DNA from: Selaginella tamariscina
Lineage: Eukaryota; Streptophyta; Lycopodiopsida; Selaginellales; Selaginellaceae
Reading direction: 5' to 3'
Assembly (NCBI GenBank): GCA_003024785.1
Contig: PUQB01000237.1
Span: 124,001 to 188,000 of the forward strand
DNA: 64,000 nucleotides
The stretch's first letter is position 1, and each line of letters starts with the position of its first letter. Shown here one piece after another: positions 45,016-64,000 of this stretch. The notes below the pieces were generated by a model that was not told the origin of the DNA, searched no databases, and saw only the letters and a list, made by a program, of their open reading frames with translations. The translations under genes were made by a program, and so were the position numbers.

Positions 45016-45811
45016 AGCCGATAATATTGTGAATGAGATACGTGTAAAAGCACGTAATACTTTGAATACGTCATCTCTCGTTATCAAGAGCCATCTCAGC
45101 CTTGTCCGCGGCCTAGTACTGGCTGCGCCTAGTATAGCTGCCGTATATATCATACTGTATATGTGATTATCTATCAATGGGACGATAAAAGTCCATAAAT
45201 AAGATTTGGTTACCGGATTAGCAGTGTCATGCTCCGAGATTTTAGTCGTTCAATGCTCAAAAGGAGAACCGCAGCTTCCTTAAGATTCATTCATGACTTT
45301 TATCTACTCTTTCAACTTAGTTCCATTTTTGGTTGGATGGCTCCAACTACAACTCTACCCAAGGAGTCCAAAATTTCTTCATGTTGTTAGTGCCAGCTTC
45401 AACACCCACATTAGTAATCACATTTATGAAGATTATATCACAAATTATAATTGCTTCAACAAATTTTAAACTCCATTATTCAAATTATCAGACTCTAATA
45501 AGGCATGTTGTATTTGGTAGTGCTTTTTTATTCCATTCTAGCACAGTCACCATATGTCATCCCACCGTATGAGATATAAAAGTGCTGTCATCTTTAAGTC
45601 GTTTAACATTTGGAACAAAAAAATAACAAAACATTGCATGTGATTGAGCAGAATAGGTGGGAGTCTTAACAATTGCGTTGACCTCCCTCCTAAACGATAA
45701 CGAAGTGTAAATATTCTTTATCTCCTGAGGTGTTCTCGTTCAAGTTGGTTGCAACTTCCCTTAGTCCGCAGTCCGCACCTGGATAGGCTGATTTATTAAA
45801 CGTTATTTATG
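45016..45811. other. Upstream region of the J-ferredoxin gene
   Basis: No gene seen. It ends in the 10-bp target-site duplication GTTATTTATG (45802-45811) of the adjacent transposon. Confidence 0.5.
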
Positions 45812-45907
45812 AGTCCCGACAAAAAGAGGGCTTCCGGGCTTCCGGGCTTGGACCCAGAATATTCTAAAGAATCTACCAGAATATTCTTAGAATATTCCTA
45901 AATATTC
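45812..45907 (+). repeat. Left terminal repeat region with GAATATTC cluster
   Basis: Contains CAAAAAGAGGGCTTCCGGGC (45820-45839), the inverted match of the right end. GAATATTC follows at 45857, 45879 and 45890, with an AATATTC near 45901. GAAnnTTC is the core of heat-shock elements, but the spacing here is not the canonical two bases. Confidence 0.7.
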
Positions 45908-46019
45908 TTAGAATTTAGGATTTTGGCTCAGTCGGTAATTAACAACAAAAAAATATTTAAATCATAGCCATGTTTATACTGTATTATTAAAGTTTTATTT
46001 CAACACCAAAGAGTACAAT

Positions 46020-49000
46020 TCAACACTTATCACTTCTTTTACGATTGAGCAATGCTGCAATTCGTGAACCACCAGTCCTACTTGATGTCACTATTGCTTG
46101 GGTTGGGATTTCCTTTGGCTGGATGTTCTCTTTAATCCTGTTCATAACAATTCTCCCGAGCTCAGGGTTTCTTCTCAATCCCAACAATGTTTCTCCCCAG
46201 CTTGATCTGCAAGCATTGAGGACCTCGTACCACTGTCTATATCCCAGATAAGATCACCTGGCCGGGTGAGTTGTTCCTATCACGAGCTGCATCAATCGAG
46301 TGCTCTTCGGTTGGTAGTCCATCCTGCATGTGAAGATAATGGTAAATACTTAAATTGTTGAAATGAAATGCCTACCATGGTTCTTGGAACCGCTCAGGAT
46401 TATCAACAAGAATTGTTGATGACAAACGCAGCGGATTATCGCGCAATCCTCTAGATGCATCTTGGAAGACAAGAAGGAGCAGGATGCTCTCCTGTTAAAA
46501 CATCAAAAATCATTAATGAACTTCATGAATAAAGAAAAAAGTACCTTCATCTTGTTGCGGTAGCCCCAACCACGCCCTCTGTAGATGTAGTACGTTGCAG
46601 CAAGTTGAAGGTCCACCACACTTGCAGCTCGGACAACTTGATCCCAGGTGTTTGCTGCAGCAAACACAACCAACCAACCATTTGCAGCCATATGCATACC
46701 TGCAAACTGGAGTGCTTCATCGAACTTCACTGGATCAAGGTAGAGGTATGGCGTATCACTCGTTGTATTTCCTGGCAAGGTCCCATTTGGAAGGTCGAAG
46801 ATCACCAAGTTGAAACCATATTCTCCCGCAATATGCTGGTAGCGAGTCTGGCTGTCAGCTGTATGGTACCTGGCCACCTGTGTCTGAACTTTTCTATAAG
46901 GAACCAGTCTAGCGTCAGGAACCTCCTCTTCCTTCTCATCCGTGAGCACGGCCTGTTGCATCTCCTCGATGTCATCAATCGCCAAGAAATTATCACCTCG
47001 AGTTGTAGCAAGTGAAGGGACGAATGTGACCAAGTCATCCTTGATGTCCATGGTTCCCTGCGATGGTAGCACTTCAGATAAATTGAAGAAGGCAGCTGGA
47101 TCGCGAGTAGTGGAGGTGCCAGCTACTGTATCTGAGGTCTTCTTTGACTGCTGCACAGGCTGACGCCGCTTTGCCTTGGCCTTTGTCTTCTTAATGAAGT
47201 CGACCTCTGCCGGATCCCATGAGATGCATGGGAGATCTTTTGAGTGTTCATTGTAGAGATCCTTCTCCCATGTTGGTGGTTGCCCAGGTGGATAATCAAG
47301 CCAGAACGGTACGTTACACGCTCGAACTCTGTCAGGCCAGATCTTGTCTTCGACCACATGTGTGGTGCTTCCATGTAATCTGACCAGAATACCATAGTCT
47401 GTGTGTGAGGCACCTTTCTCGCTGCGACATACCTGTAATGAACATATAGTAGTGTCAGAATGTAACAATGTCAAGAAGATCATCCTTACCTCCAAATCAT
47501 CCTTCTTGCTGTCTCTTCGTGTTCGAGGAACTCTTTCGGCTCTATGGAGTAAGTGAACTTCACACACTCATGGAATGGCTGGAACATCACGTTCTTGCAT
47601 TTTACCCGCACTTCATCGCTACCAAGTCGTGAAATCTGTAACCGGCCTGTCCACTCGCCATCCTCGATGAGTCCCGTGAGAATCTGTACTGCCTCCTCTC
47701 TGATGCCCGCCAATACAAATCGATAGTAAACCACCTTATCCACTCCTTATCCTGAACACCCGGCAATCCAAGTGTCTCTTGCTCTCTCTTCAGATCGAGA
47801 CGTACCAGTTTATTGAAGTACATGATTCTCGTCTCGTTTGGAATTCTCGCCCTTGAAAGCGCGTACAGCTTTTCCAACCCCATCCATCTGCATTGTTTCC
47901 ATGTGATTTGGGTCACCTTGTCGAACCACTCTTCACCCAATGCAGGATCGATGATGGCTAAGATCTTCATCATGCGCTTGTCATGCTTAAAATGTAGACC
48001 TGTTTGTTGCTCCTGGTATTTGTTGGCCTTTTGGATGCCCTTGCAGCCTTCTCAAGATCATCCTCAATCTCACTCTGTAATTCACAGACGTAATCAACTA
48101 AGTAATATAAGTGTGAGACGTGGTACCTCAAAAAAAATCTTTGCACAGATCAAATTCGGAAGTGGATGCCAAGCTTGTTGTCCAGTGCGCTTTCCTTCCA
48201 CTTTCTTATGTCATCTCGTTCCTTGTCACTGAGCCTGGCCAAGATCTTCGCTGTGCCCTCCTCACTGGTGCAACATGTCTTCACAGATAGCAGAAGATGT
48301 GGCAGTGTGGTTTGCACTGCCGTTGCGGAGGAACTGCATATTTGAAAATCTCGAAGTTAGTTAATCCTATGATCTAGAGGTCACTATGTTTACCTATTAA
48401 TTTGCTGAAACATTGTCACAAGCTGAAGATTATCCATGACCCCAGCACGGATGAAGCCTGAACGCACTCTCACTGCCCACTGATTCTTATCTTCCGTGTC
48501 TTCTATGTACAGCTTCTGAAGCACCTTTAGCCTGTGATTACCATCCCAACAGATGAACTTCTTCATCGAAAGCATTGGTGCCCATTGCCGGAACATGTCA
48601 GACTGAAGCTCCTTGCCATACATCGCTTCATCGCTTCTCAATGCTGCCAGATCTGCATCTGTCATGGGGTCCCCAACTTGAAGGATGAACTGAGTGGTGT
48701 TGCGCAAATAACCAACTGCCTTCTTGAAACTCCTAGTCAAAGATTCCAGATCCGCTGGATTGACTCTCCGCACCTGTCATTTCCCAGAATTCGGCAAATA
48801 GGGACATCCGGTGCCTCTCCATATTCTCGGATTGTGATCTTCGCGAGAAGACGCACTGCACTCTCCGAATGCATGCTGGCTGCAATGTTGTAAACTTCCT
48901 CATTATCTGGCACTTCTGCTTTCCCCTTCTTCTTCTTCTTAGCAGCCTCTGAATCTCCAGCAGCTTTGCGTGTCTCTTCTTGTTCTTGGGTTCATCCTCT

Positions 49001-49331
49001 CGTCACTCGACAAAGTCACTGCGCATGAGGCTTGTGTGCCTTCTGTCTGCTCCTGTGTCTCCTGTGGTAAGACATCATCCTCAACTTCTTCAACAAAGTC
49101 TGATTGTTCTTGTTGGGGTTGAACTACATCCTCTTGCTCTCCTGACCAGTCCTGCTGGCTTGCCTGTTCAACTGGAGCATCACTTGAAGGTCCTTGTTCC
49201 TGAACCACAGCCAGCTTCCTACTTCCTCTCCCACGACCCCGACGCCCTCTCTGAATTGCAGCTCTAGCTTCTGCTTCTCTCTCAGTAGGCTCCTTCATCT
49301 TCTTTTCTTGTAAACGTTGTGAAGAGCGCAT
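46020..49331 (-). CDS. ParB/Srx-like plus methyltransferase-like protein of the transposon
   Basis: Six exons by GT-AG signals: 48394-49331, 48127-48333, 47490-48074, 46545-47432, 46376-46491, 46020-46323; roughly 1,010 residues. The N-terminus has an AT-hook-like RGRRGRGRGSRK tract and an acidic Q/E-rich linker. Then comes a ParB/sulfiredoxin-fold domain: DVPICRILGNDR, VNPADLESLTRSF and KKFICWDGNHRLKVLQKL (about 48529-48549). An unrecognised middle follows. Exon 4 has a Rossmann methyltransferase-like segment, GFNLVIFDLPNGTL, then FDEALQFAGMHMAANGWLVV. The usual amino-methylase motif [DNS]PP[YWF] is replaced by DLPN, so catalysis is doubtful. At least four single-base breaks exist (near 47740, 48775, 48985 and in the last exon, 46020-46323); those near 47740 and 48775 are G-run losses. 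Domain calls are by eye; the fusion resembles prokaryotic and phage ParB-methylase proteins. Confidence 0.6.
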
Positions 49332-49417
49332 CTACAAAAGCAATAAGGTTTAACAAAAAACTGTAATAAATGTTCAAAGATGTTTAATAAAAATAAAAAA
49401 AACATACTAGCCCTCAC

Positions 49418-49736
49418 AGTCGGCGTGCCGACTGAGAGAGTAGTTGCGTAAGTCCCAGTCGGCATGCCGACTGGGCCTGGCATCAAAGGGAGGCCAGTCG
49501 GCATGCCGACTGGGACTGGCAACAAAGGGAGGCCCAGTCTGGGACTGGGAACGAAGCGAGGCCCAGTCAAAATGCTAGGTGGGACTAGAACAGAACAGTC
49601 AACCCTAGTCAAAATGCTGACTGGGGCTGGAACAGTCAACCCCGGTCAAAATGTTGACTGGATCTGGAACAGTCCACCCCAGTCGGCCTGCCGACTGGGA
49701 CGGACAACGAAGTCAGTCCGAGTCGGCAGGCCGACT
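49418..49736. promoter_or_regulatory. Array of 16-bp palindromes in the divergent promoter
   Basis: Palindromes of the form AGTCGGCATGCCGACT at 49457-49472 and 49496-49511 are perfect. Variants are AGTCGGCGTGCCGACT (49418), AGTCGGCCTGCCGACT (49681) and AGTCGGCAGGCCGACT (49721). Degenerate half-copies (AGTCAAAATGCTGACTG type) fill the gap, about every 35-45 bp. The half-site GTCGGCAT recurs near the right end (53795-53802) and CAGTCGG near the left end (45929-45935). The array lies just upstream of both divergent transposon genes; a binding site for an element protein is an inference. Confidence 0.6.
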
Positions 49737-50204
49737 CGGATTTCTTGCAACTGTGAAGAGATGTAAAAAGATGAACAGATCATGAAGAGATCATGAGCAG
49801 ATCATGAAGAAATCAGAAAACTCACCCCCTCAATGGAAGCCTATTGTGATTAATCCCTGGAGCCACACTTGCTCCACGCTATGCCCCCAAATGAGCCCTG
49901 CTCCACGAAAACCTAGCCGCCCTAGCTGCCCTAGCCGCCCGCTAAATCAATTAAAAACCAACCTAATTTCTGTAAAATATTGCATGCATGATCGCCACTT
50001 GTACATAGTAAAACTTTTTAATTTACAAAAAACCTACCCAGACGCAGTAAATTAATTTCACTCTTCTACCCAGACGCACGCAATTAATATTATTTTTAAT
50101 ATTTGTCAATGAAATGATTGCCTCACGACTAAAAACACATTAACCATCGTGTGTAATATGTTCATTGTCTTTGAATTTTAACTTTTTTTGTTCCATTTTT
50201 GCTA

Positions 50205-53200
50205 CATGGCAAGAATCAGCTACAATGGTGTTGACAAGGACTTCCCTGCAGATGAAGATGGTATTGCATTTGTCTTTGAAACAGATCTCAGGTCTGCATT
50301 TGACATTCCACCTTGGCAATCTTTTAAAGTGCTGCATTTATGTCTGTTGTTGGTGGAGATGCTGCGAATGTTGAGGTAGAACCAGAAGGGGCAAGAGCTA
50401 GCAGTTTTGTGTATTACACACTTCTTCCTTCCAAAGGACCACTATTCCGGTTGGAGACAACAGATCGGGACAATTCTATGGTAACAATACTTCGCAATAG
50501 TCAGAGATGTAGGATTGGGAAGCAACTGGTGGTCTCGTCATCGATTCAGCAAGTTGCTGAGGTCCCAGAAGATTGCAACGGAAATGTGATTTACGAGTTG
50601 CCAGCACACGAAACAATGAAGGACAAGTACAAAGGGATGAATAGGAAGGATGGGTGTGATTACTGGACTCAACGCTGCACAACACATTGGAATGTTCCAG
50701 CTCGTGTTAGTCGCAGTTCATGTATTGGCCACATGAAATGCGTAAAGGAAACATGTCCGTTCATCAGCTTAAGTAAGAAAGCAAATGACTGCCAATTTAA
50801 GGGCACCATTGATAAAGTCCAGTTATCTTCAGATGGTAGAGTGCTTGAATGAAGTGTGTGCATTGCAACAATGAGCCCCTTCTAGTGCAGACATGCTCCG
50901 TTGTTGCATATTACATAATTCCAGATGATATCACATGCACGAGGCTTTTCATCCATCTTGGAGAACATCAACATCCACGTAGACCACCCGAATCCATGGT
51001 CTCTAAAGACAGAGCTAAGGAGACAATCAACAAAGCAGTCGCTGCAACCCCAAGAACTAATCAACGTGTCATAGAGTTTCAAGCAGCACGCAATATAATT
51101 TTGGAAAAACTGGTAACAGATTCTGGAGATGTATCATACGACAAGGTTCTGTCAGATCTACTACCACTCACAAATCACCGCCGGTAAGCAAAAAATTATT
51201 ATTTCCTTTTGGAGATGCTTAACCTTTCCACTGTAGAACAAGAGAATGGATATCTCAGGCTAGAACAAGAGACACTCGTTTCAAAGAAGGTTACGAAGGA
51301 CTTTGCAGTTAAAGAAGAAGCTATCAATCCCATTCATACATGTTATCCACATACCTGGAATGGACCTCCACGGAGCTGAAGAGCAGCCTTTAATCTTCAA
51401 AATGACAGTTGCCGGCCCAGGATCCGGAATAAACTACATTAGAAGGTGTCAATCTGGAGGTGATCTCGAACAGCATGGGTGGTGCTAGACCACACATATC
51501 ATACAATGGATCATAGAGATGTATTCCCAGTGTACACCAATCATCAATAAGTATTAACATATCTATGTTTTAAAATACTTACTAATATAATGCACTTATG
51601 TTTGTGTAGTTTAAGGTCGATGGTGACACTTGCTTATGGTGACATGATCAGGGAGGATAGTGTGGCGGTGATTAAATTTTTGAACACTATGCTTCAAGTG
51701 TGCAGCAAGCAAGGACTTCATAATGTGAACTTTGCGAGGTTCATGTCAGATGAGTCAGGTGCAATTTGGTTAGCATTGCGTTCAAGTTTTAACAATGGGT
51801 CAAAGATGAAAAGAAGAGGGAGGAGCACATGAACCTTGCACGCTCATGGCCTGCAGCACTAACCAACCAAGATAAGTTGGAACGACGAGTAATGTTGGAG
51901 TCATTTTGGGAAGGCAGGTCCAGTAACGTTAGCGCTTGCAAACATGGCTGTCATGGTGGGCAAGACATGAAGATCATATTTCCATGACAGAGATAATTGA
52001 CTTGACAGAAGATGTGTTGCGAATGTGCCTACCACTAACAACTCCGAAGTTGTTCATGCAAGAGCACGAAGAGCAAGCTGACGAAGCGTGTTCCTTTGTT
52101 GGAGGCAACAATGTTAGATTTAACAGATGCTGTTTTCCAAAGTGCAAAGGTCAAGGCATCATTTGAAGGGAATATTCAGGCACAGGTCCTTCCATGGAAA
52201 CTCTTCTGAAACGTGCACAGTAGAAACTTTCAGCGGGAAAATCAGTGTCTCCAACAACTTTTGCAAATCTTGTTAGTGATGAAGAGCATCTTGCAAGTCC
52301 AAAGTTTGCCTCTACAACAAATGTTCGTGTTCGAACCGTTCGTCAACCGTCAACTAGGGACCATGGGATTGATGCGCTTCGTACACATAGACATGACACA
52401 CAATATGCAGAACAAGTCATCCCAAATGCACGCAGGAAAAAACTCAAGTTTCAAGATGTCAATGTCACTGAAGAGAGACGTTGATGACTCAGTGGGCCAT
52501 CAGACGCATTGGGGAGGCAAGTTAGGTGAAATGTCTAGGTCTCACTCAGGACGGTAACAGCAAGTGTGGCAGACCCATAGGAATATCCACATCGTGTACC
52601 GGCACCAGGATTTCACGGTAGACGGCAATATACAAATGCATTTGGGAACATTGAGTTCACTCATCAGATGTTATGGTTCTGCCCACGCGATTCTTTTGCT
52701 TCAGATGACCATATGCAGATTCCTCCTGAGAGTATTCCAGAAGTTCCAGAGGTTTGGCCAGTTCAAAAAGGAACAAATTTGAATGCAAATGAGGTTGAAG
52801 CTCTTCTGAAAGCAGGATTCAAGTTGGAGGGATTTGAAGAAATGGTAGACGACAGTAGTAGCCGAATGGATCGAACACCATCACCACCAAGAGGAGAGGG
52901 AGCACATAGAGTACCAACATACCATGGACGGAGTGTGCGAACACCAACAAGAATGTCCAAGGAACATGAGAAACATTACAACTAGGCAAAGATTTTTCAA
53001 GGTCGGATCAACAACGTGGAGGTGGTTCAAAGAGGGAAGATGAGGCCTTCATTGTCTCTGCAGGCATGCAATCTGCTAAGGTAACAATTTCTACTATTCC
53101 GTCATGCACTTGTGCAACTTTTCAGAAAGCCAAGAACTGGAGCCCCTGCCAACACATGTATTTTGTGTACACTCATGTCTTGGATTGGACCCAACGATTA

Positions 53201-53738
53201 CTTACTTCTTACAGAGGCAGACCCTTGCTAAGGTAACAATTTCTACTGTTCCGTCATGCACTTGTGCAACTTTTCAGAAAGCCAAGAACTGGAGCCCCTG
53301 CCAACACATGTATTTTGTGTACACTCGGACCCAACGATTACTTACTTCTTACAGAGGCAGACCCTTGCTAAGGTAACAATTTCTACTGTTCCGTCATGCA
53401 CTTGTGCAACTTTTCAGAAAGCCAAGAACTGGAGCCCCTGCCAACACATGTATTTTGTGTACACTCATGTTCTTGGATTGGACCCAACGATTACTTACTT
53501 CTTACAGAGGCAGACCCTTGCTAAGGTAACAATTTCTACTGTTCCGTCATGCACTTGTGCAACTTTTCAGAAAGCCAAGAACTGGAGCCCCTGCCAACAC
53601 ATGTATTTTGTGTACACTCATGTTCTTGGATTGGACCCAACGATTACTTACTTCTTACAGAGGCAGACCCTTACTCCAGCAGAAGTGCATCGGTTATTGG
53701 TTGATTGCAAGCGCAATGTCGAACCTGCGACCTTTTAA
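50205..53738 (+). CDS. Mutator-like transposase with C-terminal SWIM fingers (frames broken)
   Basis: DDE-type transposase expected to cut and join the element. The frame is interrupted several times (for example near 50325, 50850, 51310 and 52170), so it is described in pieces. The N-terminal part has a Cys/His region ending IHLGEHQHPRRPP, like the WRKY-GCM/FLYWCH-type fingers of these transposases. After a 53-bp intron (51184-51236), VVLDHTYHTMDHRDVFPVYT supplies the first catalytic Asp (51488-51490). FMSDESGAIWLALRSSF supplies the second (51749-51751). The third acidic residue was not fixed. The C-terminus carries CTCATFQKAKNWSPCQH, a CxC...CxH SWIM finger, present four times, and ends CKRNVEPATF. 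Assignment rests on these motifs plus the 10-bp target duplication. Confidence 0.65.
53079..53675 (+). repeat. Four tandem SWIM-finger units (about 153 bp each)
   Basis: Units start AAGGTAACAATTTCTACT at 53079, 53230, 53370 and 53523 and are nearly identical. Full units are 153 bp (51 codons), so units 3 and 4 read through in frame. Unit 2 lacks 13 bp and unit 1 lacks about 2 bp, which shifts the frame. Each unit encodes one CxC...CxH finger. Confidence 0.9.
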
Positions 53739-53820
53739 GTCCAGTTGGTTATAGTAAAGTCTAATCGGCAAATATTAGCGTTTTTCACTTGTTGGTCGGC
53801 ATTTTATATTGAAAGTTAAA

Positions 53821-53936
53821 GATAATCTACTTGGCAGAATATTCTAGAATATTCCCATTTATTTGACAGAATATTCTTGGATATTCGGGAATATGAGAAA
53901 AGCCCGTTGTACGAAGCCCGGTTTTTGCTAATCCTT
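53821..53936 (-). repeat. Right terminal repeat region
   Basis: In reverse complement it reads GCAAAAACCGGGCTTCGTAC then AACGGGCTT, then GAATATTC repeats, matching the left end. It is followed directly by the GTTATTTATG target duplication. Confidence 0.7.
53837..53854. promoter_or_regulatory. Perfect four-unit heat-shock-element-like site
   Basis: GAATATTCTAGAATATTC fits GAAnnTTCnnGAAnnTTC exactly, the alternating pattern bound by heat-shock factor trimers. It lies about 80-100 bp inside the right end of the transposon. The match may be chance in AT-rich DNA. Confidence 0.4.
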
Positions 53937-54136
53937 GTTATTTATGCTCCGCTGGTAAGAATGTTAACTTGGTTTACCAAAAGACATTAATAATGTTGTA
54001 TCTATAAATTGTACCGATGTTTTGTTAGATATTGATTATATATATAAACACACATACATACGTATCACAATTTCATTATATATATTATAAACTCGTATGT
54101 ATGAAAGTATATATTACAAATTAAAAAGAAGATACA

Positions 54137-57096
54137 TCAATGGCTACTATTCATTTGCCAAGATTTCGAGTGATGGCTTTTGCTATAATCTAGTCTTCCT
54201 TGACTAATCTCCAACACCATAGCTAATGCTTCTTGAATATTTGGACGGCCACTTGGATTCGGAAGAGTGCATAACAAACCAACTTGAATCAATAACCTCA
54301 GAATCCTAAACTCATTATAAATCTCTAGATTTTGTGAAATCCACACCCGAAGACTACTTTCACTCTGCCGAAACAACTCATTTGTTGGAGACTTCTCACT
54401 GCCCAAAACAAGCAGCAACATACCAAAGCTGTACACATCACCCATGGTAGACATATGTAGTGCACTTGCATACTCTGAAAAATGTATGTAAGTTGCCAGG
54501 TTCACACGCAAGCAAGTGGAAACGTACCTGGTGGAGCATATCCAATGGTGCCTCTAAACCCACTGACTGAAACAAGATTGTCCTTCCCAGATACAAGTTT
54601 CGACAGCCCAAAATCACCTAGGTGTGCTGTAAAATCTGAGTCAAGAAGTACATTTTCAGGCTTCAGATCACCATGAACTACTGGAGTGTCGAAGTGATTA
54701 TGCAGGTAATGTACCCCTTGTGCAATGTCTATTGCGATCTTCAACTTAATGTCGACGCCTAGTGCATTCCTGCCGTTTAGATAGCTAGCAAGAGACCCGC
54801 TAGACATAAACTCCATAACCAAAGCTATGAGTTTGTCACTGCAGCAGTATCCCACCACTTTTGTGATGTTTCGATGTCGTAAACTAGCCAACGTTTTGAC
54901 CTCAGTTAGGAAGCTCTCTTTTTGAGCTATGTCTTGTAGAACTTTTACAGCAACTTGCTTATCTTTCCATTTGCCTCTATACACCTTGCCATATCCGCCC
55001 TTTCCAACTAGTGTGGCATCGCTGAAGCTTTCTGTCATATCCGACAACTCGTCAAAGCTGAATGGAGATAGACCATCAATCCCGGCGGATCTTACTGCAT
55101 TCCTTTGCGTGCGCCGAAGGTGTACTCCGTAAGCACATATACATAATGCTGCACATATCAAGATGCTTGTCGTTACTGATACCGGCACCAGCCACTTGAC
55201 CATCTTCTTCTTCTTATTCTGAGGATTCGTCAATGGCGGAGAGGAACAATTCCCGGTGAGAATAGATCCACATAACAACTGGTTCCCTTGAAAAGAAGAG
55301 CTATTGAGCTTTGAGAATGACCCGTTCATTGGTACTGGTCCTTCCAACTGATTGTAAGATAGGTTGACAAACTTGAGGTTGTCTAAAGTGGTCAACTCAT
55401 CTGGAATCCTCCCAGTCAGTGCGTTGATTGAAAGGTCGAGCGACTCAAGGGAGTGGAGCTGAATGAGTGCCGACGGAATCGTTCCGGTTAACATATTGTT
55501 GGAAAGGTTGAGTTGCATCACACCTTTGCAGCCGCCCAAGGCAGCAGGAATCTCACCTGACAAGTTATTAGAGGACAGAGAGATGTTCACTACCTTGTCA
55601 AAGTTACCGATCCAGAGCGGGATCGTGCCTTGGAGATCGTTGTCTGAGATATCAAAGACGAAGACAAGGCCTGCCCAGACTTGCTAGCGAGGACGGTAGC
55701 GTGCCGTTGAGCTTGTTGTGTGAGAGATCCAGATACTGGAGACGACTGAGACTCCCTAGGCCAGATGGAATCTGACCATGCAAGCGATTTACTCCCAAGT
55801 CGAGTTTACTAAGGCTCTGTATCTGCCCTAGCTCATGAGGAATGTACCCCTCGAGCATGTTGTTGCTCAGTGCAAGAATCCCAAGACTCTTGCAGTGGAC
55901 GAGCGATGTAGGGATGTTTCCGGACAGCTTGTTGAAGCTGAAAACCAATCGCTCGATCGCTGGAAGCGAACCCAGTGAGACAGGAATTCTGCCTTCAAGC
56001 TGGTTGGAATGCAACATGAGCTGAGATAGAGAAGACGCGTTACCGACAGTTGACGGAATGTTACCGCTCAACTTATTGGAGTAGAGGTAAATATACTTGA
56101 GCTTCTGCAGGTTCCCAATCTCTGGAGGAACTGAACCCTCGAGTGAGTTGTCATTGAGTAGCAGACGTATCAAGGACGAGCAGTTCCCAACCGAGGGAGG
56201 AATAGGCCCTGTAAGCGAGTTTCCTGCAAAGTCCAGGATTGTGTAGAGCTGACTTTGGATGCCTATTCCACTAGGTATAACTCCTTGGAAATGGTTCGAA
56301 CTGAGGGAGAGCTCCTGTAAGTTGGTGCAGTTAGCCAGCCATGAAGGGACGTGCCCTCCAATCTGATTGAGGTAAACGTAGAAATAGAGAAGGTTTACGG
56401 GAAGCTGAGGAACCTCCTGCGGTAACTCCCCGTTAAGGAGTTCCATGAAAGCTCAAAGTCTCGCATTTTGGAGCAGTTCCATATGGAGATTGGGATCGGA
56501 CCGCCTAAGCTGTTCTTGAAGAGGTACAAGAGTGAGAGATTCTCCATTCTGTGGAAAATATCTGGAATCTTCCCAGTGAGTGAGTTGGAATGAAGGGACA
56601 AAGCTTGGAGGCCAGAGCAGTTTGCAAGAGACGGTGGAATTGGACCGCTCAGATTGCTTGCCTGTATTGCGAGACCACGCAACTTAGTCAGCCTGTGGAA
56701 CATATCTGGGACTGGACCGCTGAGAGGATTCGGACCGAGTGCGAGTTGCTCTAGTAATGTGCAGTTTCCGAGCTCATGCGGGATATTTCCGATGAAATCG
56801 TTTGACTGGAGGTCCAGATAGTCTAAATATTCAAGCTTGCCTAGCATAGGTGAGATTGTACCGGTTAAGTTTTGCTCGTGGAGATCAATAGTTTGGATTC
56901 TGTTGCGATGCTTTGGATGACATGTGATTCCTGTCCAGTTGCAGAATGGAGTGTTATTTGTCCAAGTCTGAAGAACATTACTCGGATCTTGTGTGATTGA
57001 GCTTCTAAATGCTAGCAGAACATCTAAATCACTCTGTGCGTAAGTGCAGTAAGTGCACAAGATGAAGATGAAGATGAATTTGAATCCCATAAGCAC
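54137..57096 (-). CDS. LRR receptor-like kinase, FLS2/EFR-like, non-RD
   Basis: Plasma-membrane receptor kinase. Signal peptide MGFKFIFIFILCTYCTYAQS, LRRNT-type start (DLDVLLAFRSSITQDPSNVL, NTPFCNWTGITC), about 20 plant-type LRRs, then the membrane helix WLVPVSVTTSILICAALCIC. Kinase domain: GKGGYGKVYRG (ATP loop), VAVKVL, HGDLKPENVLLD (Gly replaces Arg before the catalytic Asp: non-RD, typical of immune receptors), DFGLSKL and GDVYSFGMLLL. A 53-bp intron (54475-54527) splits APPEY. Two single-base breaks, near 56425 (a G-run one base short) and 55665 (a G-run one base long), divide the LRR domain; otherwise the sequence is well conserved. Ligand unknown. ATG 57096 chosen; a second in-frame Met follows at the third codon. 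Confidence 0.88.
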
Positions 57097-57257
57097 TTGT
57101 CAAGTTGTAGCGTACAAAGGGCTGAACGAGCTGTGTGAAAAGGAAGCGCAGCTATTTTTGTACAGAGGAGATATTATAAAAGATATTATCTTTGATTTCA
57201 AAACCGTGTTGTAAACAACAGTGGCCAATTGTCATTGACAATTTGTCAAGCTCATTG

Positions 57258-57462: not shown

Positions 57463-60400
57463 TTATCCTCCCCTCTGCGGCTGTGTAGATGGTGATGGAT
57501 CTGATGGTCCTGGATCCGTGTGAGTGGGCCATCTAAGGTATGACCAAATGTACGAGTCTCGAACGACAAACCGTTTCATTCGAACCACGTGAACTATCTC
57601 AACCTCATGAGATCCCACCAACTGTACTTGATATACCTGAGGACCAACCTTTCGGAGTACTCGGTAGGGACCAAGCCACTTATGTAATAAACCAGTTGCA
57701 AGCCCAGGTGCAGTCAGCTTGGGAAAACGTACCAGGACTAAGTCACCGTCAGCAAAATCTGGTGGAATTTGATGTCGTGCATTGTAAGAAGATTGCTGCT
57801 GCATTTGAGCTCGACCAAGATGTTCAGCAGACTCTGCACGCAGAAGAGGCAAAACAGCATCCAAATGTCGAGCCCACATCTTTGCATCCTCGGCACGTGG
57901 CAGATTCGATGATAACCCCAATTCACTAGGCAACTTAGGATCATATCCATACAATGCCTTGAATGGAGAGATACCAATCGAACTCTGAATGCCTGTTACA
58001 TAAGCAAATCTCAAACATCGCAAATACCAATCCCAGTCCGTGTGATTGAAGTTCACATACTTCGAGATCATACCCTTGAAGGTCCGATTCAATCGCTCCA
58101 CCAAACCATCAGTTTGTGGATGATACGGAGAGGCAAATGAATGTTTTACCCCTAACCTCTCACACAACACTCGGAATACCTCTGCAATGAAAGCGGGGCC
58201 ATTGTCTGATAACATCCGCTCTGGACAAGAATGCTGCAAAACCACATTATCGAACAGAAAAAAGCTGTTGACATGGCAGTTGCATCCGGAAGAGCACCAA
58301 CCTCCACCCATCGAGTTAAATAATCATACAACAATGATGTACTGGTTACCTTGAGAAGAACGTGGAAAAGGTCCCATTAAATCCACTGCAATTAACTCAA
58401 AAGGGCGAGAGACATTGATGGATTCCAACACCCCATGGCCCGAGTCGTAGAGGAATTCCGAGTTTGACAAGTGGGACAGCTTTGAATATACCTGATCACA
58501 TCACCACGCATGCTGGCCAATAAAATGATCGCGCAGCTTCTCCAACACTCGTTGGTGACCAAGATGACCTCCAACAATAGGTGAATCATGATATGCTCGA
58601 AGAAGGTGTGGAACATATGTAGAGGGTACAGCCAAACGCCATCTGTCCTCTGGATTTGTCCCAATAAAATACAATAAACCATCCTGAAGTCGAAACTGAG
58701 CATGATATTGTCGAAACCGAGGTTCGGAAGACGGATTGCAAACGCATCGCGTAATTGCCTCGTCCATGGTTCATGTTTTTGAGCATCCTGCCACTGTTCC
58801 AAGGATGGTAAGTCGGCATCGAATACCTGAGGGGCTTGTATCAAACCGAATGCTGCAGCTACTGCATGAGCAGGCAAAGTGGAATCGGAGAGGGGTGCTC
58901 GAGAAAGTGCATCCGCATCCACCATTGTTCGCCCAGGCCTGTGCACCACCTTAAAGTTATATACCTGGAGACGTAATGCCCATCTGGCTACGCGACCCAC
59001 TAAATTCTTCCGTTTTAATAAGGAAGTGACAGCAGCATGATCACACTCCAAAAGTGTTTCACTCCCATGTAAGTAGGCATGAAGTCGTTCAAAACCCCAA
59101 ACAGCAGCAAGGCATTCTTTTTCAGTAGTGGAATAATTCCGCTCAGCCGGCGTGAGTACTCGACTAATGTAAGCCACCGGGTGTCGAATTGAAGAATCCA
59201 CAGCATCAGTTTGCATCAATACACCACCAATACCAACATCTGAGGCATCTACTCGTAAAATGAACGGACGAGTAAAATCTGGGTATTGAAGCAATGGTGG
59301 AGTTGTCAGGAACTCTTTTAACTGGTCAAATGCCTGCTGACACCTGCGAGTCCACCTGAAAGATACCTGTGGACGAACTAACTCCCGAAGAGGGGCAGTT
59401 CGATCAGTGAGATGATCGATGAATCGACCCAAGTACTGCACCGTGCCCAAGAAACGCTGGACTTCCTGTACTGTACGGGACGAGGGAACTCTCGAACAGC
59501 TCGCAACTTCATTGGATCCACCTGTAAACCCTCTCGAGATATACGGTAACCCAAGTAAGTGGTGTCGGTCGAACCAAACACACACTTTTCAAGTTTCAAC
59601 TTCAGGCCAACTTCTCGAAATCGATCAAGAACGCGCCGTACATCACGAATGTGATCCTCCCAAGAACCAGACCCATGAATGAGCACATCGTCGATAAAAT
59701 CGGCAGTGATATCAGGCATATCGGAAAGAAGCTCATCCATCATGCGTTGAAAGGTGGCAGGAGCTGAAGTCAATCCAAAAGGCATGACCAAAAACTCGTA
59801 AAGACCAAATGGTGTCCGGAAGGCCGTTTTTGGAATATCCTCCTCAGCCATAGGAACCTGCCAATATCCTGATGCCAAATCCAACTTAGTAAACCATCGA
59901 CTCTGACCCAAACGATCTAATAGATCGGCAGAGTTCGGAAGTGGATAGACATCTTTGATGGTAACATCGTTAAGAGGTCGGTAATCCACACAAAATCGGA
60001 GAGATCCATCAGGCTTGGGAACCAAATGAGGTTCACATGCCCATGGACTCCGTGACGGACGACACACTCGTTTACCAATCATATCAGTAACAGCTGTTCG
60101 CATGGCTGATAACTCCTTTGGTGACCTGCGTCGAACCGGGACTTTGAAAGGCTTTGCATTGCCGGTGGGTATACAGTGTCGAGTCTTCACACGTGCACCT
60201 TGGGACAGATCAAATTTGAACAAACTTGCATACTGTTTCTTAAGTTGTTCGATGCAGTGTGCTCGACACTCAGGTGACGGATCCGGCATTTGAACCTGTT
60301 GAGATGAACACCACCCCAAGACCGGAATCAAAGGAGCTGTATGCGTGATACAAACAGCAACAAACTTCTCTGGACGTAAAGGAACAGACTGCAAAGACAC

Positions 60401-60724
60401 AGACTCCAAGCGTAATACAGGAGGAGAGAGTGAAAAATCACATGTACCTTTCGACTGCTTTAACCAATCACATCCCAGAATGATGTCAAAGACCTGGGAA
60501 GGGACAACCCTAAGAGACCCAGAGGGAAACTTACAGTTGGCACCCATAACCAGCGTAGTCGAAGTGGTGTACTGTGATACTGCACGAGACTGCCCATTAC
60601 CATATAAAATGTGCAAGACCTTATCTGCTCGTCTCAAGGGTAATGAGCACCAATGTGCCAGAGAAGTATGCAAGTTGTAACTAAAATGGGCATGGCTATA
60701 GTCCCATTTCCTAATAATTAGCAT
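57463..60724 (-). mobile_element. Ty3/gypsy retrotransposon polyprotein, 5' truncated
   Basis: Order on the minus strand is protease remnant, reverse transcriptase, RNase H, integrase, which is the Ty3/gypsy arrangement. Visible motifs: VPKPDGSLRFCVDYRPLND, FGLTSAPATFQRMMDE and FIDDVLIHG in reverse transcriptase; FILRVDASDVGIGGVL and VHRPGRTMVDADALSR in RNase H; a HHCC integrase finger (SPIVGGHLGHQ ... SCPTCQTRN) and SDNGPAFIAEVF with HPQTDGLVERLNRT in the integrase core. Three frames are needed because of small indels. No gag or 5' LTR was found; the coding sequence stops near 60724 at AT-rich DNA. It is a decayed copy inserted upstream of the LRR kinase. Confidence 0.9.
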
Positions 60725-61176
60725 TTTAGCTATTTAATTAGCATTTTCTAATATTAAAGGAATATTCTTTAGAATATATGTTTGAAAAAGAATATTCTTT
60801 AGAATATTCTATTTTGTATTTTACCCTTTAATAAATTATAGCATTCATTGAACAAAAATTAATAACATTATAAATAGAAGGTATTAAATTATATAATATA
60901 TTGCCTAATATAACAATTAAGGAAGAGCATAAGAGTACATTATATAAATATTGATGTTGTTATTAAAATATTAATATTTAAATATAACATTATTAATTAA
61001 AAATTTGTAGTAGTAATAATATATATATAAAATCCTATAATAATATAGTCAATCTTCCATATCATTTTTTAAATTTATATAGTTAAGTATACAATTTGGT
61101 ACTATTATTAAAGAGTTTATAATAATTATGAATATTAAATATATGATATTTTATAATTTTGTAATTGCTTTAAGCT
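60725..61176. other. AT-rich spacer with GAATATTCT palindromes
   Basis: No gene. 60757-60812 has AGAATATTCT-type palindromes like those in the Mutator-like terminal repeats (GAATATTCTTTAGAATATTC). It may be a fragment of a related element end. Confidence 0.35.
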
Positions 61177-64000
61177 TCAGAAAAACATACATTCCCTTGC
61201 AGTTTTGTTAATCGTGACTTTATCAACGCTTCTTGACATCCACCCATATCGAATGGATTTAACATTTATAAAACATGCTGGGTCTTTTTGATTGGGAGAC
61301 CATGTTTTCTCTAGGCATCCATTATATCTTTCGCTCTCCTTCTCGTGTCGCCTTTTTTGTGGTTTGAACCATGCAACCTTAACAATACTATTTTTTGTGA
61401 TTACTTCAGGTGTGTCGATAATTTGACCCATCCAAATAGGCTGATTATATGACGCATCTGGAGTAATGAGAACCATCATTAGTTTTTGAAGATCCTTGCA
61501 GCAATCAAAGTATGCTTTAGGTTTTTGGTTCCTTTGTCCAACAAAGTGTGGGGTTTGCACTTCCACATCACTACTGGCTTCTATGTCGTCTATGCTCAGT
61601 GATGTCATTTCAATCTCCTCTCGCCACCTTGTTTTAGGCCAGAAAGGGTGTTGCAATTCTGTACTTGTGACAGTAGGCCCTTCCAACTCTCGAACAACAG
61701 TCTCCCAATAGTTGACCACATGCTTATATAGTTCTGAGTAACCAGTTGCCTTATCAGAATTCTTTGGCATCGATTTTTGAACCCATGCCACATATTTTTT
61801 GATGCCATCAATAATAACCTCTTGTTCCTTGAGCTGGGCACTCAATGGAATAGGGTCTGGTTGTCCTTCTGGGAGAAGTGGCTTTCCATCCTCTCCACTT
61901 TTGAAGAGCATTAAGCCCTCTTTCGGTAACCACTCCTGCTCTGATGGCCGTAACTTGTACTGCATAATAGGTATACCATCTCGTATGGAGAAAAAGAATT
62001 GTAGCGGCACAAGGTGACCAACTAAAGAATCACTCCCTTCTTTTATATACTCCTTGAGAAATTTTTTGAAGTCTGGCACCTCAGTCACAAGCAAAGCACA
62101 ACTTTTTTTGGAGATGCAATTTTCAAAAAGATTCATCATATGCGGTAAGGTAAGTGCACTTGTCCTTTTTGTAGAGTTGGAGACCTTGCTGAAGAACGCA
62201 TCAATATCTTCATGAGTGTGACCAACCATAAGGAAACTGAGCGTGATTGTTTCAAACACACCTTTGGCAACAAGCATTGACAAGTATGCTAGCACATATC
62301 TAGAAAATAAAAGTAAGTATGAGCTTGAGAAACCCTTAAGTAAAATGATTTACCTATTTTTGTTTCGCCTGCACAATTATCCATCTGTAAAAGCAAATGA
62401 CGAGGAAGCTTATTTGATGTTGAGGACACATGTACACTATTTGAGCTAGATCCCTCCACTGAACCTGAACTCTCAACAGGGCCATCTGTTTTTTGTGCAG
62501 GTTGTGACAATGCCTCTCATATTCCCAAGTAGCCTCAAGTGCAGACGTGTTCATGAGAGCATTATGTAAAGGTTGAAGGTGTTGTTTCTTCACTTTGAGA
62601 TCACTGATAGGACTTGTCTGTGAGTGGGCTTCAAGGTTTCTGAAACACATGGCTAACGACCCAATAGTGAAATTGGAGTCGCTAGACCAATGTGGAAGTG
62701 AAAAGTGTCCATATGACTCACAACCGTGTCCATGTGTTAGCACACCTGTCAATGAAATCGGAAGTTTCATGACATTTCCAAGGCACTTTGGTGTTGCAAA
62801 GAGCTTTGGAATGCTGGTCTTTGAATGATCCATCTTGTCATGGATCAAGCACAGGTACTCTGATGGGCGTGACACAGAAAGCATGCGGTGTGCATAGTAC
62901 TGAGACCGGCAAGTTTGTTGTGCAATCATGTGGGCCTCCATCTTCCTTTGAATGGTAGTGATCTCCACCAAGGTTTTTGCACAAGCCTCTGCAGCCTTCA
63001 ATGATGTACAAGTGTCACACTTAGAAAAGCTAGAGTGTTTTGCAATCTCCACATCCTTAAAATGAGTATTCCATATGTTGTTGAAGGTACCAGTGCAGAT
63101 TGCTTGGAGCCCCATCAAACTGAGGCACTTGTTCACATGTTCACACAGTTTCAATTGAGTGTAGATTGAAGGTAAAACCTTGAGATTTTCCCTGACCCCT
63201 GCATTTGTGGTTCGGCATTTGTGAGGCATCCTGTCTGCATTTGCTTCCACAAAAGCCTTGAGTATCTCTATGGCTGCCATGATGTGAGAGCGGGTTTTGA
63301 CCAAGCCAGTGTTCCCATGAACTGAGGTTCGCGCTCCATCTAGCCACTCATCCCTCCGACGGTAGAACGTGGTCTTTGGGATCCCGTATATACTGTACCA
63401 AGCTTTGAAGCAGATGGCCACCTTATTAAATACCATGGATGTACTCTGATAACCTGTGTCCGAGGCCATTCCATCAATACACCCAGTTAGTGCAGCATAT
63501 ACAAACTCATGCCTTTGCTTTTGGGTGAGCATACGAAAGACATGTCTACATTGGGTAATTTCATTCCGGTCTGCCATCTGACAACACTTCTTCTTGCAAC
63601 AGTCAATCGTGGAAATGCTCGTAACACTTTCGGAAGATGTAGGATCCATCTTTACCCTCTTGCTGAAACTTGCAGGGGAAGATCTACAACCCATGAATCG
63701 CCTTTTTCTTACAATAGGACCAATGCAAGGAACCTCTTCAAATATGAGTTGTTCTTCCGGGTTGTTATTATTGAAATCCAACCCAGAATATGTTGAACCA
63801 TCTTGCCGTCTTAATTCAGATGTTCGCCACCTCACGAGGGATCCAGGATACAATGTGCCATTAGGTGAAACCTCTGTCACAACTACACCCACGAAGTCGG
63901 ACCCTAGTTTCTCTTCTGACACTGCTTCCATTGGATTTATAGCTGTGATGATGCCTCTTCCGACTTCAATCTCACGAAGAAAGAGAATCACCTCATCCAT
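61177..64000 (-). CDS. DDE-type transposase-like protein (HTHEDID family), partial
   Basis: Reads from the right window edge to a stop at 61177; the true start may lie outside. The N-terminal part has a VGVVVTEVSPNGTLYPGSLV region, a Cys cluster (DCCKKKCC), then an IPKTTFYRRRDEWL putative DNA-binding part. A SKCDTC finger and IHDKMDHSKTSIP follow (likely first acidic residue). LLLQMDNCAGETK (second) precedes a 54-bp intron (62300-62353), and VAKGVFETITLSFLMVGHTHEDIDAFFS comes after it. I recognise the DNCAGE...GHTHEDID signature from a widespread family of eukaryotic transposon proteins (DUF7869-like), probably RNase-H-fold. Two single-base breaks occur, near 62520 and in an A-run at the intron junction (62354). 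No terminal repeats were identified. About 900 residues. Confidence 0.65.

Follow-up and report, generated by a model that had tools for sequence, protein, structure and literature searches.

A Mutator-type transposon of Selaginella tamariscina with a ParB/Srx-like, methyltransferase-like accessory gene and a candidate palindromic target array

Some Mutator-like elements (MULEs) carry accessory genes besides the transposase gene, MURB being one. Methyltransferase domains are also found on eukaryotic mobile elements, for instance in some DIRS1-like retrotransposons, which are retroelements with a tyrosine recombinase. The available part of PMC13317346 lists VANC and ULP1 among the accessory genes of MULEs. 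VANC, encoded by Arabidopsis MULEs, is described as binding non-coding tandem repeats within its own VANDAL family, and its targets are said to diverge rapidly (accessible sections of PMC10398659 and PMC13317346). In Ectocarpus, Sola1-1_Ec32 bears an opposite-strand gene for an 1104-aa ParB and N4/N6 methyltransferase protein; similar proteins are cited there for green (Iyer 2011) and red (Petroll 2025) algal transposons, and self-written marks are offered as a suggestion only (excerpts of PMC12477816). The bacterial ParB-methylase Bce_0392 is described, in the portion of PMC5512222 at hand, as a non-specific nicking enzyme. A literature search for plant MULEs or other transposons with a ParB-methyltransferase returned only the Ectocarpus paper as being to the point. 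The novelty originally claimed for the locus studied here is therefore narrowed: no plant MULE case was found in that search, but algal transposon ParB-methyltransferases had already been described.

The locus lies in a 64,000-nt window (the whole stretch of DNA analyzed) of Selaginella tamariscina contig PUQB01000237.1, where a Mutator-type transposon of ∼8 kb occupies positions 45811–53936. The target-site duplication GTTATTTAT flanks it at 45802–45810 and 53937–53945. The left end (45811–45935) starts with GAGTCCCGACAAAAAG and has a short degenerate TIR followed by palindromic GAATATTC units, and the right end (53745–53936) has GAATATTC units and a degenerate TIR finishing in AATCCTT; both inner limits are approximate. 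The + strand of the window has GTTATTTATG at just two places, 45802 and 53937, and a perfect 10-bp duplication had been predicted. This length was ruled out by sister copies, which start with GAGTCCC: only 9 bp are duplicated, the tenth base being the element's own first G (45811), which the flank happens to match. Of 20 sister loci fetched, three (L015, L017 and L018) were left out for want of one end in the stretch. Exact duplications of 9–11 bp, with small end shifts allowed, were seen in 11 of the other 17, and none was found in six (one with N at its left end). The TIR is degenerate enough that 1.9% of 2,000 random pairs align equally well over 40 nt. TIRs are absent from some MULEs, according to the part of PMC6446971 available. 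Chance is excluded by the ∼150 or more genomic matches together with the duplications. The duplication, a SWIM zinc finger and the sister copies agree with the original prediction of a Mutator-like element at this place.

The transposase is encoded on the + strand by exon A (50206–51183; N-terminal part with clustered Cys/His), exon B (51237–51550; first Asp, VVLDHTYR, in sister copies) and exon C (51610–53738; second Asp in MSDES, CLFH, Glu in TTNNSE of sister copies, and the SWIM zinc finger). The window's own copy is damaged, with the SWIM segment repeated about four times (53035–53660), and ∼45 bp of exon B are inverted. Two transposases on public contigs of 4.0 and 2.4 kb, P0001 and P0002, are 34% and 30% identical to it, respectively, and share the second Asp, C-x2-H, the Glu and the SWIM region. 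The full Asp/Asp/Glu set and CxFH align with P0001, which also has the first Asp; P0002 is without the part bearing this residue. The Pfam MULE model gave no match up to E 10 for any of the three proteins. Against a cut-off of 19.6 bits, the SWIM model scored 31.1 in the window's repeated segment, 22.8 in P0001 and 17.7 in P0002; a sister copy gave 19.8 for an 81-aa piece and 15.1 for the whole of exon C.

The accessory gene runs on the minus strand in six exons, for a protein of ∼1,010 aa, and is frameshifted in the window copy (exons 1–4 and 6). Exon limits rest on splice sites read from the window sequence and compared with sister copies. Exon 1 (48394–49331) contains the start codon, a charged low-complexity N-terminus, the ParB/Srx-like region and a CWDGNHRL box; its frameshifts lie near 48990 and 48780, and it is open over 320 aa in many sister copies. 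Exon 2 (48127–48333) is one base short in the window copy, and exon 3 (47490–48074) encodes a middle part in which no Pfam domain was found. Exon 4 (46545–47432) accounts for the methyltransferase domain's first half and contains the catalytic-site motif DLPN. The frame changes near its start in the window copy, and the window's own reading there was rejected, as sister copies give a different frame. Exon 5 (46376–46491) and exon 6 (46020–46323), the latter with SAM-binding motif I, complete the gene. None of 18 copies (17 sister copies plus the window's) is open through all six exons; the assembly may contribute false indels. Copies of the burst give a pN/pS of 0.83 over accessory exons 1–3 (exons 4–6 lie outside this total) and of 0.76 over the transposase, with L021, L026, L015, L017 and L018 left out. 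These values suggest little selection since insertion.

The Rossmann DNA-methyltransferase part anticipated by the original prediction is supported. Read from sister copies in which they are open, the exons specify a permuted N6/N4 DNA methyltransferase domain, and PF01555 matches over the SAM-motif part with E 3.8e-9 and 37.3 bits (cut-off 26.7). The protein also matches phrog_67 in PHROGs (4.4e-12). Profile comparison with five phage methylases, whose alignment was built with the query included and the query row then removed, scored 103; the highest score among 60 shuffles was 19.6. By alignment with these methylases, the catalytic motif precedes the SAM motif in beta order. In NCBIfam, a corrinoid-protein methyltransferase ranked first and CcrM came after it, both far under their cut-offs, and the broken window exons gave nothing reliable in Pfam, PHROGs, NCBIfam or PDB searches. 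The catalytic tetrad departs from [DNS]PP[YFW], reading DLPN instead of DPPY in both of the element families described here. DLPN is present in 15 of 16 aligned copies, the window's included, and the remaining copy has an indel; SAM motif I is DIGSGTG in 12 of the 16 and DIDSGTR in the window copy. Because DLPN lacks the aromatic residue, catalysis may be lost or changed, and we class the protein as methyltransferase-like rather than as a canonical enzyme. The altered motif leaves the proposed role in marking DNA a hypothesis.

The ParB part of the prediction fared less well. This region carries a DGNHR box, which reads CWDGNHRL in both families, and no Pfam match was obtained for the region. 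Compared with 20 ParB proteins, the whole region scored 21.1 (best of 60 shuffles, 19.1), and 34.1 (best shuffle, 17.7) once a 43-residue insert was removed, a choice made after the first comparisons had failed. Against eight fusion proteins, the scores were 19.5 for the whole region (best shuffle, 18.7) and 24.7 with the insert removed (18.8). Five true ParB controls scored 38–90, all above the accessory region. Comparison with YbdM-like proteins alone, or with a four-sequence ParB profile, gave no support, and single-sequence AlphaFold2 prediction for 128 aa of the window's ParB stretch yielded an unusable model (pLDDT 36). On these sequence comparisons, the N-terminal region is weakly linked to ParB/Srx.

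Does the accessory gene belong to the element? The 300.7-Mb genome contains at least 150 matches to the ParB exon (151 counted, 150 listed), most of them 97–98% identical. Among the matches listed, 108 of 150 ParB exons have an opposite-strand transposase within 5 kb and 107 of 150 transposases have an opposite-strand ParB exon within that distance; no same-strand pair was seen. Forty-three transposases were unpaired, and 20 of them were sampled: one site fell beyond its contig, one was all N, and each of the 18 readable ones had the accessory exon. In all 17 sister copies with both ends, the minus-strand gene lies between them. One of the sister copies, L028, has lost accessory exons 5 and 6. 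These data support the prediction that the gene is part of the element, and linkage to the transposase rules out a host gene that merely adjoins it. Two of the outcomes named in advance as refuting, a copy without the gene and the gene alone, were encountered at none of the loci inspected.

A second family in the same genome keeps the accessory gene, at a distance where synonymous sites are saturated. Over six chosen segments, with poorly aligned parts left out, pS is 0.84 and pN 0.23 between families. DLPN and DIGSGTG are present at 4/4 second-family loci, and WDGNHRL at 3/3 that have the exon. The accessory protein is thus under constraint between families, as judged from these alignments. 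Searches of a protein collection with the protein gave no matches (one search was probably swamped by low-complexity words), viral contig and genome contig collections gave none, and phage tblastn with the ParB exon found none.

Between the divergent genes of the window element, at 49415–49739, lies a palindrome array with five AGTCGGCNNGCCGACT cores (49418, 49457, 49496, 49681 and 49721). The half-site AGTCGGC forms 22-bp palindromes in this family, upstream of the accessory gene, and AGTCGGC arrays occupy that position in the second family as well. The core is present in 18/18 elements and absent from 36.9 kb of element flanks and from the 55.9 kb of window outside the element. Genome-wide there are 1,285 of the 22-bp sites and none of a reversed control. 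AGTCGGC ranks first of all 7-mers in the between-gene region of the first family, and joint second in the upstream region of the second. The array is a candidate target site.

We favor a model, to which we give about an even chance, of a two-gene MULE whose accessory protein recognizes the palindromic array, modifies or occupies it, controls both genes and counters silencing. In this model, the family's genes for a DDE/SWIM transposase and for a ParB/Srx-like–methyltransferase accessory protein are transcribed in divergent directions. The latter, probably as a dimer, would bind the array in the shared promoter and modify or occupy it, expression of both genes would be controlled through the array, and element DNA would be kept open against host silencing, as by VANC but with a prokaryote-type enzyme. 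Gene and sites together may thus be a self-marking or anti-silencing kit. The bolder version, that a transposon of a land plant carries a sequence-specific 6mA/4mC system of its own, with a dedicated palindromic array conserved over deep divergence, and marks its promoter against silencing, is tentative and somewhat unlikely. The protein might instead keep the SAM fold without methyl transfer, as a catalytically dead, sequence-specific anti-silencing or regulatory DNA-binding protein. The near-invariance of DLPN in both families would fit such loss, as would the Tyr or Phe found at the fourth place in all five aligned phage methylases; yet one of these has DIPY, so the second place does vary, and the two families share DIGSGTG together with the residues around it, as continued use of SAM would predict. 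We regard this reading as unlikely.

Another view treats the array as a promoter or enhancer for the transposase or a host transcription factor, with the accessory protein acting elsewhere, on RNA, protein or general DNA or as a nicking nuclease. An array between two divergent start codons is in a usual promoter position, and the activity described for Bce_0392 (PMC5512222, in part) offers a precedent for nicking via the ParB-like part; transposase sites, however, are expected at the ends, which bear GAATATTC and not AGTCGGC, and we consider this view quite unlikely. Least probable by far, and rejected here, is a Pack-MULE-like passenger, with a gene of host or bacterial origin captured by the element but of no use to it. 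Near-neutral decay of exons 1–3 within the burst and the failure to find a fully open copy among those checked are in line with it, but the same gene persists under protein constraint in an anciently diverged family, the genes are linked wherever checked, and no relative appeared in the protein collection.

The favored model bears on the possibility that mobile elements of eukaryotes set epigenetic marks themselves. For this question the genome, that of a land plant and fairly small, offers ∼150 or more young copies, another, diverged family and a specific candidate site of 22 bp. The element also adds a bacterial-type methyltransferase(-like) gene to the accessory genes of MULEs. DIRS1-like elements resemble it in bearing a methyltransferase domain but differ in architecture. 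Phage fusions (e.g. L044 and L045) and Bce_0392 have the same order, a ParB domain and then a methyltransferase, but the two phage proteins are 412–429 aa with DPPY, whereas the Selaginella protein is ∼1,010 aa long, has DLPN and an extended middle part, and comes from a gene with introns. VANDAL elements are, similarly, MULEs with a second gene, and the Selaginella repeats also lie outside genes and vary in number; the available text names no methyltransferase domain for VANC, and its targets are said to diverge rapidly, whereas the Selaginella half-site is kept between two diverged families. As far as the accessible description of Sola1-1_Ec32 goes, the architecture matches: an opposite-strand accessory gene for ∼1,100 aa, predicted to be ParB-like plus N4C/N6A methyltransferase, inside a DNA transposon. 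The comparison is by description alone, and that element is a 21.5-kb brown-algal Sola1, whereas ours is an ∼8-kb land-plant MULE with DLPN and a palindrome array. Since the algal cases came first, what is new in Selaginella is the land plant, the MULE and the candidate cis-site.

Comparison of the window with sister copies placed the Mutator-like element (MULE) at 45811–53936, with the transposase on the plus strand and an accessory gene on the minus strand. The original prediction had given the element a 10-bp target duplication. The two copies of GTTATTTATG are real, but the duplication is 9 bp long and its tenth base coincidental, because sister copies begin GAGTCCC. Twenty sister loci, picked for having the ParB-like exon, were fetched from the assembly (300.7 Mb in 1,391 contigs), and the transposase part was matched in all of them. 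Three lacked one end in the fetched stretch, leaving 17 for end analysis; exact duplications of 9–11 bp were found in 11 of these and none in the other six. Palindromic GAATATTC units, spaced 10–22 bp, lie close to both ends (45857–45890 and 53837–53869) in all four copies printed, the window among them, and are possible candidate sites for the transposase.

No Pfam MULE model matched the transposase, and relatives on public contigs were 34% and 30% identical to it. The second Asp, C-x2-H and Glu are common to the transposase and the relatives P0001 and P0002, and the first Asp to the transposase and P0001. Three sequences scored high enough for a SWIM finger to reach its cut-off: the window segment, P0001 and an 81-aa fragment from a sister copy. 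Exon C of the sister copy taken whole, and P0002, stayed under it. Together with the 9-bp duplication, these features fit a divergent MULE. Two peculiarities of the window copy were seen. At 51503–51546, ∼45 bp of exon B look reverse-complemented when compared by eye with the sister copies, as in a small local inversion; at 53035–53660, the SWIM-finger segment occurs about four times (period 140–153 bp) and only once in aligned sister copies.

To the right of the element, also on the minus strand, are a leucine-rich-repeat receptor-kinase-like gene adjoining it (54502–57099) and, farther on, retrotransposon-like polyprotein pieces (57466–60733), both named from ORF reading only. ORFs with DUF7869 (E 1e-26) at 61180–64000, minus strand, may belong to a further large mobile element that the end of the window truncates.

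Linkage of the two genes was assessed genome-wide. A 128-aa piece of the accessory gene gave at least 151 matches (best 150 candidates), most 97–98% identical, with open frames of 320 aa at many of the matches listed; a transposase piece gave at least 150 (best 150 candidates). One element may count twice, as L026 does, because each match is an exon. L026 is a 9.0-kb copy with an apparent tandem duplication of some of the accessory gene. Among the matches listed, 108 of 150 gene matches had an opposite-strand transposase match within 5 kb, 107 of 150 transposase matches paired with the gene, and no pair shared a strand. For 20 of the 43 transposases without a paired gene match, the expected gene position was inspected. 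One position fell past the contig end and one read N; exon 1 was present at all 18 readable sites, in one case as only ∼265 bp at a contig end. The places sampled yielded neither of the outcomes that would have refuted the original prediction, namely element copies without the gene or the gene alone.

As reconstructed from sister copies, the gene has six exons, five introns of 52–60 bp and a product of ∼1,010 aa. Open versions of every exon exist among the copies. A gene open throughout was found neither in 17 sister copies nor in the window, where exons 1–4 and 6 are out of frame; one copy, L028, is missing exons 5 and 6. Some frame breaks may be assembly errors in repeats. Within the young burst, pN/pS is near neutral (0.83 for accessory exons 1–3, 0.76 for the transposase).

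The C-terminal domain (METHYLTRANSFERASE), assembled from open exons for profile searches, matched PF01555 at 37.3 bits (cut-off 26.7) and phrog_67 ('DNA methyltransferase') at 4.4e-12. In NCBIfam the top match was a corrinoid-protein methyltransferase (9.3e-7), followed by CcrM (2.7e-6); neither came near its cut-off. MboIIA led the PDB matches (5.7e-4), followed by ribosomal L11 methyltransferase and DpnA (1.1e-3 each). Profile and PDB matches span the SAM-motif part. Against five phage methylases the full domain scored 103, versus 19.6 for the best of 60 shuffles, with the catalytic Asp in register. The SAM motif is DIGSGTG in 12 of 16 aligned copies; the catalytic motif is DLPN instead of DPPY in 15, and the sixteenth has an indel.

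The N-terminal region is probably ParB-like. By eye it has the ParB-protein order NP, helix, strand, DGNHR, strand, plus an insert of ∼43 residues; no Pfam model matched it. Both families' region scored 21.1 against 20 ParB/ParB-methyltransferase proteins (best of 60 column shuffles, 19.1) and, with the insert removed, 34.1 (best shuffle 17.7; probability 67%). Against eight fusion proteins it scored 19.5 (shuffles 18.7), or 24.7 (18.8) with the insert removed, which is under every control, since five true ParB proteins scored 38–90. One family's whole region alone reached 17.9 there, under its best shuffle (24.2).

The second family emerged from a genome-wide PF01555 search, which also yielded sites outside the first family. 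All four inspected (L081–L084) carry a diverged version of the gene, with 46–76% identity by segment in L081. All four have DLPN and DIGSGTG, and the three with the relevant exon have WDGNHRL. L083 is a rearranged copy in which a related transposase has the same orientation as the gene. In six well-aligned segments between families, synonymous sites are saturated (pS 0.84) and pN is 0.23; therefore the protein, both halves included, has long been under selection.

Five copies of AGTCGGCNNGCCGACT lie between the two start codons in the window; 100 window shuffles (≤2 mismatches) gave a mean of 0.06 and a maximum of 1. One unit is altered on both arms together (CCGAGTCGGC..GCCGACTCGG). Each of 18 elements examined has 1–10 cores, which are absent from 36.9 kb of their flanks. 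Genome-wide, CCCAGTCGGCNNGCCGACTGGG occurs 1,285 times and the backwards-read pattern never; on all eight contigs among the matches listed, the array lies, by eye, no more than 4 kb from a match to the gene, the transposase or PF01555. The half-site AGTCGGC occurs once in the 55.9 kb of window outside the element. In three second-family copies it occurs 11, 6 and 9 times in the 680–837 bp upstream of the gene and 1, 0 and 0 times in ∼3.2–3.3 kb downstream; it is absent from L083. That non-coding DNA has retained it across a divergence that saturated synonymous sites points to a candidate binding site.

We propose that the accessory protein, probably acting as a dimer, would bind the array and either modify it, presumably by methylation, or occupy it. 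In this way it could control the divergent promoter and counteract silencing. Given the altered catalytic motif, the main competing explanation is a binder without catalytic activity. The lack of an open copy, the near-neutral pN/pS in the young burst and the weak ParB evidence count against our preferred reading of a protein that binds and modifies or occupies the array.

Searches of open-access literature found no plant MULE carrying a ParB-methyltransferase. In the parts consulted, a MULE survey does not use the word 'methyltransferase'; its table records SET domains for one oomycete group and, for some other groups, antisense second ORFs, and the rows in those parts name no DNA methyltransferase (PMC6446971). 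The corresponding parts of a 2026 review of plant gene capture contain neither 'ParB' nor 'methyltransferase' (PMC13317346). An Ectocarpus paper describes a Sola1 transposon with an opposite-strand 1104-aa gene combining ParB and N4/N6 methyltransferase, refers to cases in green and red algae, and has already put forward self-marking as a suggestion (PMC12477816). A ParB-methyltransferase gene in a transposon is of a kind already known; the land-plant MULE variant, its DLPN motif and the conserved candidate site have apparently not been described before in the open-access literature searched.
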